The notes below the pieces were generated by a model that saw only the letters and a program-made list of their open reading frames with translations, made no database searches and was not told the DNA's origin. Made by a program: the position numbers and the translations under genes. A stretch of DNA of 64,000 nt from positions 17,884,837 through 17,948,836 of the forward strand of contig NC_087073.1 in NCBI RefSeq assembly GCF_026151205.1, in the 5' to 3' direction. This DNA is from Bolinopsis microptera. Taxonomy: Eukaryota > Ctenophora > Tentaculata > Lobata > Bolinopsidae. Below are positions 7,131 through 12,168 of the stretch, one piece after another. How positions within the stretch are numbered: position 1 is the stretch's first letter; every line of letters begins with the position of its first letter.

Positions 7131-7313
7131 CCCCGGGTGCACGTACATAGTGTGCGATTATTTATACTTATCGAAGGCTATAAATGCCTCTTGTTTATTT
7201 TAATTTGGTATTGTTCACTTTTAGACGATAAAATACAGGAATTGCGGTATAATAATACGAATAATTAAGATTGTACGATCAAAATACATCACGAAACAGT
7301 ATTAACTACCTCG

Positions 7314-7390
7314 TAACCTGGGGACCCCAGGCTATTATGTTCATAAACATTAAAGATTTGGCGGAATGACAGGCTGAGCGCGGCCCAGTA
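7314..7390. mobile_element. Short non-autonomous element (family M1), 9-bp target duplication
   Basis: A 77-bp unit runs from TAACCTGGGGACCCCAGG to GCGCGGCCCAGTA. It is flanked by ACTACCTCG at 7305-7313 and 7391-7399, a perfect 9-bp duplication. Other copies lie at 22720-22841, 57614-57705 (inverted) and 57942-58142. The ends are TTAC...GTAA in better-preserved copies. No coding capacity. The right duplication overlaps by eight bases the duplication of the large foldback element that begins at 7401. Confidence 0.85.
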
Positions 7391-7400
7391 ACTACCTCGC

Positions 7401-10400
7401 TAGGGTGGATGGTTTTTTAATCGTATTTATGGAATTGTTACCGTTGTAAAACTTACATTATGACAGTTCAGATGGCGAAAGTTTTATCGAAAATGGACCT
7501 GTCATTGTTCTGGAAATAACAATAATAAACAATAATATCTATGACCAATTTAACCATATTAAGAAATGTGGTCGGTGATCCAGTATTGAGCATATGTGCA
7601 ACTGTGTGAGTTCAGTATTCTAATTGCCCCCTTCAAGCAGCTAAGGTGCGTCTTACTAGCAGTCATGTGACCGAGATCACGTGATAACACCTTTAACTAA
7701 CTTATTGCCCTGAGGATCAATTGGTACAATGTGTATTGAGGTAAATTGGTCGGGGTATGTTTTATTATATAATATCAGTATTTACACTGAAACATTCAAT
7801 AGCTTTCCTTAGCTGTTGGAACAGTGAAAGACCAAAATATTAGATGTTAACCCTGAGCAAATTGTAGCTTGTAGTTGTACATTTAATATAATCAATAATA
7901 CTACATACTACCTTGTCGGACTTTATTTAAACGGACTTTAGTTCATAGTTGGATGCTAGAAGCCCAAGTTTACAATTTACCGCAGAAATTTATCTCGTAC
8001 CGTTTTAAAACCAGATCTCGGAGAAAGGTTCACCTTAGAGTATTTTAAACCTAATTCTCGGGCAGACGTTTTACAATCTCCGAACAGTGTGACTATATTA
8101 GGTACAATCTCCGTACAGTTTGACTATATTGTGTACAATATATCCGAACAGTGTTCTGTGCAGTGTACCGTGTTATTGTAGAGTATTCTGTGCAGTGTAC
8201 CGTGTTACTATAGAGTATTCTGTGCAGTGTACCGTGTTACTATAGACTATAGAGTATTCTGTGCAGTGTACCGTGTTACTATAGAGTATTCTGTGCAGTG
8301 TACCGTGTTACTGTAGAGTATTCTGTGCAGTGTACCGTGTTACTATAGAGTATTCTGTGCAGTGTACCGTGTTATCATAGAGTATTCTGTGCAGTGTACC
8401 GTGTTACTATAGAGTATTCTGTGCAGTGTACCGTGTTATTGTAGAGTATTCTGTGCAGTGTACCGTGTTACTATAGAGTATTCTGTGCAGTGTACCGTGT
8501 TATCATAGAATATTCTGTGCAGTGTACCGTGTTACTATAGAGTATTCTGTGCAGTGTACCGTGTTACTATAGAGTATTCTGTGCAGTGTACCGTGTTACT
8601 ATAGAGTATTCTGTGCAGTGTACCGTGTTACTATAGAGTATTCTGTGCAGTGTACCGTGTTATTGTAGAATATTCTGTGCAGTGTACCGTGTTACTATAC
8701 AATATTCTGTGCAGTGTACCGTGTTACTATAGAGTATTCTGTGCAGTGTACCGTGTTACTGTAGAGTATTCTGTGCAGTGTACCGTGTTACAATAGAGTA
8801 TTCTGTGCAGTGTACCGTGTTACTATAGAATATTCTGTGCAATGTACCGTGTTACTATAGAGTATTCTGTGCAGTGTACCGTGTTACTATAGAGTATTCT
8901 GTGCAGTGTACCGTGTTACTGTAGAGTATTCTGTGCAGTGTACCGTGTTTCTATAGAGTATTCTGTGCAATGTACCGTGTTACTGTAGAGTATTCTGTGC
9001 AGTGTACCGTCATACCGTGTTACTACAGAGTATTCTGTGCAGTGTACCGTGTTACTATAGAGTATTCTGTGCAGTGTACCGTGTTACTATAGAGTATTCT
9101 GTGCAATGTACCGTGTTACTATAGAGTATTTTGTGCAGTGTACCGTGTTACTATAGAGTATTCTGTGCAATGTACCGTGTTACTATAGAGTATTCTGTGC
9201 AATGTACCGTGTTACTATAGAGTATTCTGTGCAGTGTACCGTGTTACTGTAGAGTATTCTGTGCAGTGTACCGTGTTACTATAGAGTATTCTGTGCAGTG
9301 TACCGTGTTACTATAGAGTATTTTGTGCAGTGTACCGTGTTACTATAGAGTATTCTGTGCAGTGTACCGTGTTACTATAGAGTATTCTGTGCAGTGTACC
9401 GTGTTACTATAGAGTATTCTGTGCAGTGTACCGTGTTACTATAGAGTATTCTGTGCAGTGTACCGTGTTACTATAGAGTATTCTGTGCAATGTACCGTGT
9501 TACTATAGAGTATTCTGTGCAATGTACCGTGTTACTATAGAGTATTCTGTGCAGTGTACCGTGTTACTATAGAGTATTCTGTGCAGTGTACCGTGTTACT
9601 ATAGAGTATTCTGTGCAGTGTACCGTGTTACTATAGAGTATTCTGTGCAGTGTACCGTGTTACTATAGAGTATTCTGTGCAGTGTACCGTGTTACTATAG
9701 AGTATTCTGTGCAGTGTACCGTGTTACTTTAGAGTATTCTGTGCAGTGTACCGTGTTACTATAGAGTATTCTGTGCAATGTACCGTGTTACTATAGAGTA
9801 TTCTGTGCAGTGTACCGTGTTACTATAGAGTATTCTGTGCAGTGTACCGTGTTACTATAGACTATAGAGTATTCTGTGCAATGTACCGTGTTACTATAGA
9901 GTATTCTGTGCAGTGTACCGTGTTACTATAGAGTATTCTGTGCAGTGTACCGTGTTACTATAGAGTATTCTGTGCAGTGTACCGTGTTACTATAGAGTAT
10001 TCTGGGCAATGTACCGTGTTACTGTAGAGTATTCTGTGCAGTGTACCGTGTTACTATAGAGTATTCTGTGCAGTGTACCGTGTTACTATAGAGTATTCTG
10101 TGCAGTGTACCGTGTTACTATAGAGTATTCTGTGCAATGTACCGTGTTACTATAGAGTATTCTGTGCAGTGTACCGTGTTACTATAGAGTATTCTGTGCA
10201 GTGTACCGTGTTACTATAGAGTATTCTGTGCAGTGTACCGTGTTTCTATAGAGTATTCTGTGCAGTGTACCGTGTTACTATAGAGTATTCTGTGCAGTGT
10301 ACCGTGTTACTATAGAGTATTCTGTGCAGTGTACCGTGTTACTATAGAGTATTCTGTGCAGTGTACCGTGTTACTATAGAGTATTCTGTGCAGTGTACCG

Positions 10401-11486
10401 TGTTACTGTAGAGTATTCTGTGCAGTGTACCGTGTTACTATAGAGTATTCTGTGCAGTGTACCGTGTTACTATAGAGTATTCTGTGCAGTGTACCGTGTT
10501 ACTATAGAGTATTCTGTGCAGTGTACCGTGTTACTATAGAGTATTCTGTGCAATGTACCGTGTTACTGTAGAGTATTCTGTGCAGTGTACCGTGTTACTA
10601 TAGAATATTCTGTGCAGTGTACCGTGTTACTATAGAGTATTCTGTGCAATGTACCGTGTTACTATAGAGTATTCTGTGCAGTGTACCGTGTTACTATAGA
10701 GTATTCTGTGCAGTGTACCGTGTTACTATAGAGTATTCTGTGCAGTGTACCGTGTTACAATAGAGTATTCTGTGCAGTGTACCGTGTTTCTATAGAGTAT
10801 TCTGTGCAGTGTACCGTGCTACTATAGAGTATTCTGTGCAGTGTACCGTGTTACTATAGAGTATTCTGTGCAGTGTACCGTGTTACTATAGAGTATTCTG
10901 TGCAGTGTAAACTGTAAACTTGGGCTTATAGCATCCAACTATGAACTAAAGTCCGTTTAAATAAAGTCCGACAAGGTAGTATGTAGTATTATTGATTATA
11001 TTAAATGTACAACTACAAGCTACAATTTGCTCAGGGTTAACATCTAATATTTTGGTCTTTCACTGTTCCAACAGCTAAGGAAAGCTATTGAATGTTTCAG
11101 TGTAAATACTGATATTATATAATAAAACATACCCCGACCAATTTACCTCAATACACATTGTACCAATTGATCCTCAGGGCAATAAGTTAGTTAAAGGTGT
11201 TATCACGTGATCTCGGTCACATGACTGCTAGTAAGACGCACCTTAGCTGCTTGAAGGGGGCAATTAGAATACTGAACTCACACAGTTGCACATATGCTCA
11301 ATACTGGATCACCGACCACATTTCTTAATATGGTTAAATTGGTCATAGATATTATTGTTTATTATTGTTATTTCCAGAACAATGACAGGTCCATTTTCGA
11401 TAAAACTTTCGCCATCTGAACTGTCATAATGTAAGTTTTACAACGGTAACAATTCCATAAATACGATTAAAAAACCATCCACCCTA
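7401..11486. mobile_element. 4.1 kb foldback element: ~580-bp inverted arms around a 32-bp satellite
   Basis: The left arm (7401 to about 7983) and right arm (about 10907-11486) are inverted copies; reading both through I noted about one clear mismatch (GCTAGAAG against GCTATAAG). The ends read TAGGGTGGATGG and CCATCCACCCTA. The element is bounded by CTACCTCGC at 7392-7400 and 11487-11495, a perfect 9-bp target duplication. The core holds a long 32-bp tandem array. There is no open frame of useful length, so it must depend on a transposase supplied elsewhere. The 9-bp duplication and long inverted arms suit a Mutator-like origin (inference). Near-identity of the arms means recent insertion or arm-to-arm conversion. 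Confidence 0.9.
8147..10908. repeat. 32-bp minisatellite array, about 86 copies
   Basis: The unit is a variant of GAGTATTCTGTGCAGTGTAC followed by CGTGTTACTATA, 32 bp. About 2.76 kb of array gives roughly 86 units. Units differ by single bases (GCAGTG/GCAATG, TACTATA/TACTGTA/TATCATA, TTCTG/TTTTG) and a few have length changes: an extra ACTATAG near 8243 and 9858, and a partial unit near 9010. Variants are shared by scattered units, as expected from unequal exchange. The spacing has no unique spacers, so this is not a CRISPR array. Imperfect precursor repeats with ACAATCTCCG motifs lie just outside at about 8070-8146. Confidence 0.95.
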
Positions 11487-11881
11487 CTACCTCGCTACTT
11501 ATCAACTTATACTATGTACTATGCGACAAAGATACACAATGCAATATTTATATATTTAAAGAATAAACGAAACACAGTATTCGGTATTTACTAGTACTAC
11601 CCCGCTACTAGTAGTAGTACTACAACTTAATGCGACAAAGGTCAAAGATATTGTATAAAATATAACTAAATAAACAATACGGTGCCCATGCCTGAGCTTT
11701 ATAAAACTGGAAACACTTCTCAGATTAATTATTTTGCTTCTCAAAAACAATTACAAACTAACAATTTTCGACGTTAAACAGCTACATTAAACATTAACAT
11801 TACACTTCACAATCCGAAAGAAAGGGGCTCGTCGCTGCAGGCCTGACTTTGACTTGATCCTGAAAAAGTACATGTCATTTA

Positions 11882-12168
11882 GGTACCGCGACAATTGTGA
11901 ATTGACCCCCCGACAATTGACCCCCATGTAACTACACTGGGTCAATTGATCGGGTTAGGGTCAGGGTCAAGGTCAGAGTCAGTGGTCAGTGGTCAGGGTT
12001 AGGGTTAGGGTTAGGGTCCTGGGTCAGGGTCAGGGTCAGGGTCAGGGTCAGGGTCAGGGTCAGGGTCAGGGTCAGGGTCGGGGTCAGGGTCAGGGTCAGG
12101 GTCAGGGTTAATTGTATTAAATTATATTGTCGGGGGTTAATTGTCGGGGGGTAAATTGTCGCCCACCC
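11882..12168. mobile_element. Inverted-repeat element with a telomere-like core (TTAGGG and GGGTCA)
   Basis: Inverted ends contain CGACAATT, ACCCCCCGACAATT and ACCCCC on the left (about 11889-11925), matched by GGGGGTTAATTGTCGGGGGG and AAATTGTCG on the right (about 12132-12161). The flanks carry GTCATTTA at 11874-11881 and 12169-12176, an 8-bp duplication (9 bp with one mismatch). The core from about 11945 to 12117 starts as GGTCA variants, passes through four TTAGGG units near 11997-12017, then becomes a regular GGGTCA hexamer array. The hexamer looks derived from TTAGGG. No coding capacity; the minus-strand LTLTLT frame here is a repeat artefact. Confidence 0.75.

Follow-up and report, generated by a model that had tools for sequence, protein, structure and literature searches.

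By what means short tandem arrays reach scattered sites of a genome, and how new satellites are born, are open questions. Both are raised by a stretch of 64,000 nucleotides from the ctenophore Bolinopsis microptera (C2:17884837-17948836, hereafter the window), which belongs to a genome whose 232 contigs total 264,652,675 bases. A preliminary description had read a segment of the window as a foldback transposon built around a satellite array. Here, we asked whether this segment is mobile DNA and where its array came from. The element was found to be real and apparently recent jumping DNA.

Structure of the window element

The element occupied positions 7401-11486 (4,086 bp), and its parts are listed in Table 1. 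Its two 580-nt arms were identical at 578 of 580 positions (the mismatches fell at arm positions 559 and 575), and it was flanked on both sides by a perfect 9-bp target duplication, CTACCTCGC; on both points the preliminary description was accurate. The 32-bp array comprised 85.6 copies with 95% matches according to TRF, and wraparound parsing gave 85 full units and one partial unit, with 46 of the 85 identical to the consensus. The array had been described as an ~86-copy satellite forming the sole core. The copy number held, but between the left arm and the array the interior also contained a spacer of ~91 nt and a distinct 31-bp unit repeated 2.6 times. The right arm abutted the 32-bp array directly, with a 3-nt overlap, so the interior was asymmetric. 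Positions 7401-8153 could be aligned to the elements C12 and C9, and positions 7401-8100 to C7b.

Inverted repeats of 580 nt around a non-coding middle, here a tandem array, are a foldback trait. Tandem repeats within the arms are common in foldback elements but not universal, and TRF found none in the arms of the window element. Arrays of GGGTTA/GGGTCA hexamers were observed at window positions 11952-12108, ~460 bases to the right of the element, and at L009 5890-6183, directly adjoining the C3 insertion.

Table 1. Coordinates of the window element, its target and the candidate gene of a 10.3-kb relative (~, approximate).
Feature	Sequence	Position	Strand	Basis
Target interspersed repeat, left part, with small insert at ~7314-7388	Window	7201..7391	.	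Empty paralogues, L049 alignment
Left target-site duplication CTACCTCGC	Window	7392..7400	+	Matches 11487-11495; one copy in aligned empty site L049
Left terminal inverted arm, 580 nt, outer end TAGGGTGGATGG	Window	7401..7980	+	Found again elsewhere in genome
Left spacer, also in relatives with other cores	Window	7981..8071	+	Alignments to relatives
31-bp unit, 2.6 copies; arranged in long arrays in C9 and C16, two relatives	Window	8072..8154	+	TRF
32-bp minisatellite array, 85 full units and a partial one	Window	8150..10909	+	TRF, wraparound parsing
Right terminal inverted arm, 580 nt, joined to array	Window	10907..11486	-	Junction identical in 7/7 elements with 32-bp core
Right target-site duplication CTACCTCGC	Window	11487..11495	+	Matches 7392-7400
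Target repeat, right part, extent as tested	Window	11496..11695	.	Empty paralogues, L049 alignment
Candidate gene exons (~)	L021	3598-3952, 4089-4247, 4444-4553, 4681-4804, 5019-5134		Splice motifs and frames
Candidate gene exons (~), continued	L021	5327-5563, 5748-5922, 6253-6443, 6674-7051		Splice motifs and frames

Empty sites and precise insertion

The insertion target in the window was an interspersed repeat. When the flanks of the window element were joined (200 + 200 bases) and searched against the genome, with 40 of 2050 candidates scored, at least 21 places outside the window matched the query from position 189 or 190 to 400 at 93-99%. All of these matches crossed the insertion point at base 200, and each adjoined a match to the left flank. 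The one that was aligned, L049, carried a single CTACCTCGC and lacked the element as well as a small neighbouring insert. For the joined flanks of a second element, C51, 38 of the 42 matches listed extended past the insertion point, with 87-99% identity; 37 of these covered almost all of the query. A single ATATTACAT was present in both loci read. The empty sites, which were compared for these two elements, are direct evidence that both were inserted precisely.

The small insert beside the window element was ~75 bp long and MITE-like. It adjoined the element, had copies of TAACTACCTCG on both sides, used the same target and had matches elsewhere in the genome.

Copies in the genome

The window arm gave at least 46 matches, grouped into at least 23 loci; 46 is a lower bound, as scoring covered 40 of the 76 candidates. 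Both ends were checked for target duplications in 15 of the 23 loci, the others being C5, C12b and C8, with one arm each within the stretch fetched, and five loci with short or diverged arm matches. Exact duplications of 8-9 bp were found in 11 of the 15 elements (9 bp in five, 8 bp in six). Another element lay in a run of G with 16 matching bases, where the length of the duplication is unreadable. The three elements in which no duplication was found at the two ends were C16, whose right end was altered, C9, whose left end was truncated, and C7a, an indel-rich duplicate of C7b with its flanks included. The motif TAGGGTGGATGG stood at both ends in 12 of the 15, and these fixed ends, a near-fixed target duplication and the empty sites of the two elements tested are the properties of a transposon with terminal inverted repeats (TIRs). 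The flanking sequence varied from copy to copy. The foldback reading was thus borne out by other loci with both arms and with duplications of their own.

Several copies had complex surroundings. In the C10 copy, a 680-bp insertion (L011 4223-4902) interrupted the right arm, with arm bases 380-391 present on each side of it. Long reverse transcriptase-like ORFs were recognized by eye in the arm-bearing stretches L026 (C8:8565514-8575400) and L016/L017 (C11:4312944-4331256), which also contained long arrays of 11- or 33-bp units and were read as nested insertions. The segment C7:17693245-17703257 (L027, L028) duplicated, at 86%, both the flanks and the body of the 10.3-kb element found ~34 kb away at C7:17727753; it was rich in indels and stops and may represent either decay after duplication or a duplicate left by poor polishing of the assembly.

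The 32-bp core and its junctions

Seven elements contained the 32-bp array, and the numbers of full units differed among them: 85 in the window element (C2), 132 in C3, 40 in C4, 92 in C10, 86 in C1a, 70 in C1b and 124 in C51. The variation in unit number that the preliminary description expected from a genome search with arm and unit was therefore present. The bases at the left and right junctions were identical in all seven, which indicated that the 32-bp core spread from one founder. The right junction had the look of a join made by deletion, a few bases being shared. In C4, the array was broken by ~1.4 kb of other DNA nine bases past the left junction. In both C1a and C1b, one arm was shortened by 26 bp, on the same side in each; given this common shortening, they are probably sister copies.

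Allowing up to three mismatches, the 32-mer had 795 matches in the genome and a reversed control pattern had none; together with the at least 46 arm matches, this indicated that the pattern of the window was not due to chance. Element loci, of which 18 were counted, contained 627 of the 795 matches, all confined to eight loci, namely the seven arrays and C5 (two units). The others comprised 166 in L042, one straddling the start of L042 and one not located. The 167 matches at L042 formed an armless array at C10:17742988-17748669, interrupted once by ~310 bp. Arm queries found no arm in the 2.1 kb upstream or the 0.83 kb downstream of it, and the terminal motif had a single match nearby, with two mismatches and inside a G-rich simple repeat. 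Diversity was about equal in the armless and the element arrays, the parsed figures for the armless one containing misparsed sequence of the interruption, and each had private variants.

Different cores on near-identical arms

The arms of C12 (C12:4251646-4256046) differed from the left arm of the window element at one of 580 positions and were identical to one arm of C1a, and its core was made up of a 36-bp unit in two arrays, inverted relative to each other, with 29.2 and 51.3 copies. In C9 and C16, the arms were 3-4% away from those of the window element and the arrays were of the 31-bp unit. Paired inverted arrays occurred in the relatives C9 and C12, unlike the arms of the window element. 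The 32-bp and 36-bp cores both replaced the 31-bp array from one position, directly after CCGAACAGTG.

The genome was searched with the 31-, 32- and 36-bp units; the cores of C1c, C8 and C11a stood outside this search. The 36-bp unit had 73 matches: 55 in C12, 10 in an array without these arms at C10:10147287-10147800, and eight as inverted pairs on C4, C5, C6 and C8, which gave five 36-bp loci besides C12. The 31-bp unit had 95 matches, 90 of them in arm-bearing elements and five at C9:11600887-11601108, where no arm was found within ~1.5 kb on either side, barring a 13-base match at chance level. Each of the three units thus had at least one armless array. In shuffle tests of the 32- against the 36-bp unit, the two strands gave p = 0.207 and p = 0.017 without correction for the 12 comparisons of that series; we regard the units as different, not as proven unrelated.

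The 36-bp pair on C4 lay in a large palindrome (L044, C4:7543800-7553300). Its arms were at least 4.3 kb long and 99.5% identical around a spacer of 887 bp, it spanned to both ends of the stretch, and it contained tandem repeats of 63, 43 and 36 bp.

Gene-bearing relatives and a candidate mobiliser

The preliminary description had also named an autonomous relative sharing the ends as support. Two relatives of 10.3 kb, C7b (C7:17727753-17738043) and C11:13175177-13185497, had the same ends and 8-bp duplications, and their arms as measured were 10-12 substitutions and one indel away from the window arm. Between the same arms, both carried a gene that has introns and shows a D, D and CxxH pattern. 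Gene-bearing relatives were therefore found, and they may be autonomous. By its position and its residue pattern, this gene is a candidate for the mobiliser. The gene model starts at ~3598 in L021 (Table 1), exons farther upstream lying outside it. Among the frames listed for a third copy, on C12 (L020), the three longest of those bearing exons were open. The last exon had 36 matches in the genome at E <= 0.001, some overlapping and many at ~30% identity. The exons of the gene in C7b were conserved, and homologues were found at 85-87% identity in the last exon. In the homologues in L052 and L050, which shared 60% and 39% identity with the first sequence, the exon pattern was kept. The conserved residues were an aspartate in FFD (covered by two of the three sequences), GGD, and CLLH followed by VEL. 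The CLLH recalls the C(2)H pattern known from several transposase superfamilies.

For three joined-exon homologues with their N-termini missing, Pfam gave no family at E values of up to 10, and a MULE transposase domain was likewise not found in these sequences. A sequence search of PDB matched no transposase chain. Four weak matches to ribosomal S10 proteins in the PDB profile search (E 0.034-0.16) were taken as chance. Since neither database gave a useful match, the candidate protein was assigned to no superfamily. A PHD-like cysteine pattern was not found in six unspliced frames of C7b, the N-terminal exons lying outside the gene model, and in C3p the same scan gave simple-repeat matches only.

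Spread of the element and origin of its arrays

Taken as a whole, the observations are probably explained by a non-autonomous, foldback-like cut-and-paste transposon of which one founder acquired a 32-bp array, spread as a composite and changed in array length. The element would be a geneless transposon with long TIRs and target duplications of 8-9 bp, most likely mobilised in trans by the protein of the 10.3-kb relatives that have the same ends. A single founder would have gained the 32-bp array, joined on the left directly after CCGAACAGTG and on the right at one position of the arm, and the composite, moving as one piece, would then have reached at least seven sites. There the arrays would have been lengthened or shortened to 40-132 full units, perhaps by slippage or unequal exchange, and cores may have been exchanged with arrays elsewhere through ectopic break repair. 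What was observed directly is that insertion was precise, that empty sites exist, that junctions are common to the copies while array lengths vary, and that near-identical arms hold different cores.

Two explanations were considered for the origin of the core. The first is that the armless arrays are older host minisatellites which were copied into the interiors of elements during gap repair, the proposed sources being C10:17742988-17748669 for the 32-bp unit and C10:10147287-10147800 for the 36-bp unit. We gave it nearly an even chance of being right. It agrees with the different cores on arms 0-1 substitutions apart, with the 36-bp units at five loci outside C12 (one armless array and the inverted pairs on C4, C5, C6 and C8), and with the length of the armless 32-bp array, which at 166 or more units exceeds every element array. 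However, no collinear match between this array and the element arrays was seen by eye in alignments and variant tables, and several variants typical of the elements were missing from the armless array, and vice versa.

The second explanation, that the 32-bp satellite was born inside the element from its own 31-bp unit and that the armless C10 array is a descendant which left or lost its arms, is rather doubtful. The 32-bp array begins within the third 31-bp unit of the element, at ACAGTG, and C5 has the same left junction followed by only 2.5 units. The gene-bearing relative C11b holds a 31-bp unit, and a similar history has been suggested for Tetris and, by one of the accounts of it, for miDNA4. 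In the alignment of the 31- and 32-bp units, 4 of 1000 shuffles reached the observed score (an earlier, laxer single-base test gave p = 0.007 with 300 shuffles), but this result depends on a TRF consensus that is no actual unit. The 31-bp units alone were at chance level against the 32-mer, with 159 of 1000 dinucleotide shuffles reaching the score, and the resemblance was therefore not taken as proof. The arm of C5 carried 52 substitutions and 17 indel events, which makes its age or its sequence quality doubtful, and its junction with 2.5 units fits an early stage or a remnant equally well. On the strength of the 36-bp case, we lean slightly towards the copying of host arrays into the element.

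An ordinary segmental duplication or an assembly artefact instead of transposition is extremely improbable, although one real segmental case exists (C7:17693245, a duplicate of C7:17727753 with its flanks): flanks were unlike between copies, copies had target duplications of their own, and empty sites were precise. For the window copy, an assembly artefact was rejected on the precise empty sites and the independent copies, and a segmental duplication on its copy-specific flanks, its own duplications and the empty sites. Both were outcomes that the preliminary description had named against itself, as arms known only from a segmental duplication or an inverted arm made by the assembly.

Relation to known systems and significance

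Mutator-like elements, including Rehavkus, and Drosophila FB/NOF are among the closest known systems. Target duplications of 8-9 bp together with long TIRs fit Mutator-like elements including Rehavkus. Mutator-like elements are described with duplications of 8-11 bp and often long TIRs, both of which are present here, and Rehavkus with a 9-bp duplication, a minisatellite before the 3' TIR and a PHD finger in the transposase protein (PMC6446971). Compared with Rehavkus by that description, the elements here had duplications of 8-9 bp, and in C7b tandem arrays lay before the right TIR (PMC6446971). Unlike in these groups, the candidate protein had no MULE domain in the Pfam search and no PHD-like cysteine pattern in the frames scanned.

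Tetris, a foldback transposon of Drosophila virilis, has repeats of ~220 bp within its TIRs that are thought to be TIR-derived (PMC4079207). It is described as non-autonomous and as a source of satellite DNA, with long TIRs, variable tandem arrays and duplications of 8-10 bp, and resembles the present elements in these respects (PMC4079207). In contrast to that description, the window arms contain no tandem repeat, cores differ between near-identical arms, and gene-bearing relatives were found here, none being given for Tetris in the account cited (PMC4079207). The Tc1/mariner MITE miDNA4 of Xenopus tropicalis likewise combines TIRs with a satellite whose copy number varies; a single satellite is described for it in the reviews cited, and the present elements differ by their 580-bp arms, duplications of 8-9 bp and several cores (PMC12628747, PMC9659126). 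According to one of these reviews, capture of an existing tandem repeat has been suggested, and arrays without inverted ends can follow; the other describes a monomer born inside the MITE (PMC12628747, PMC9659126). In the Pacific oyster, related Cg_HINE Helentrons also have different tandem-repeat cores; unlike the present elements, they are of Helitron type, without target duplications, and their flanks are described with element-specific changes, whereas the flanks here are nearly identical (PMC7492417).

Transport of satellites by transposons is thus already known, and because miDNA4 and the oyster Helentrons are precedents, the claim that a satellite core is unusual was weakened. No published description of this element was found in the literature search, Repbase being outside its scope. 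What is new here is that near-identical arms carry different cores (32 and 36 bp, and 31 bp in a branch whose arms are 3-4% distant), and that each of these units has an armless array. The precedents lower the novelty; the different cores, the armless arrays and the unclassified gene raise the interest.

We speculated further that the transposase is of a type outside Pfam and that near-identical arms repeatedly swap cores with armless arrays, so that satellites would enter the element, travel with it and may leave it again; this is possible, though somewhat short of an even chance. A single genome provides a series in which the same arms occur with 31-, 32- and 36-bp cores, together with a gene-bearing relative, empty sites and armless arrays, and it shows one way for satellite DNA to move and be exchanged within a genome.
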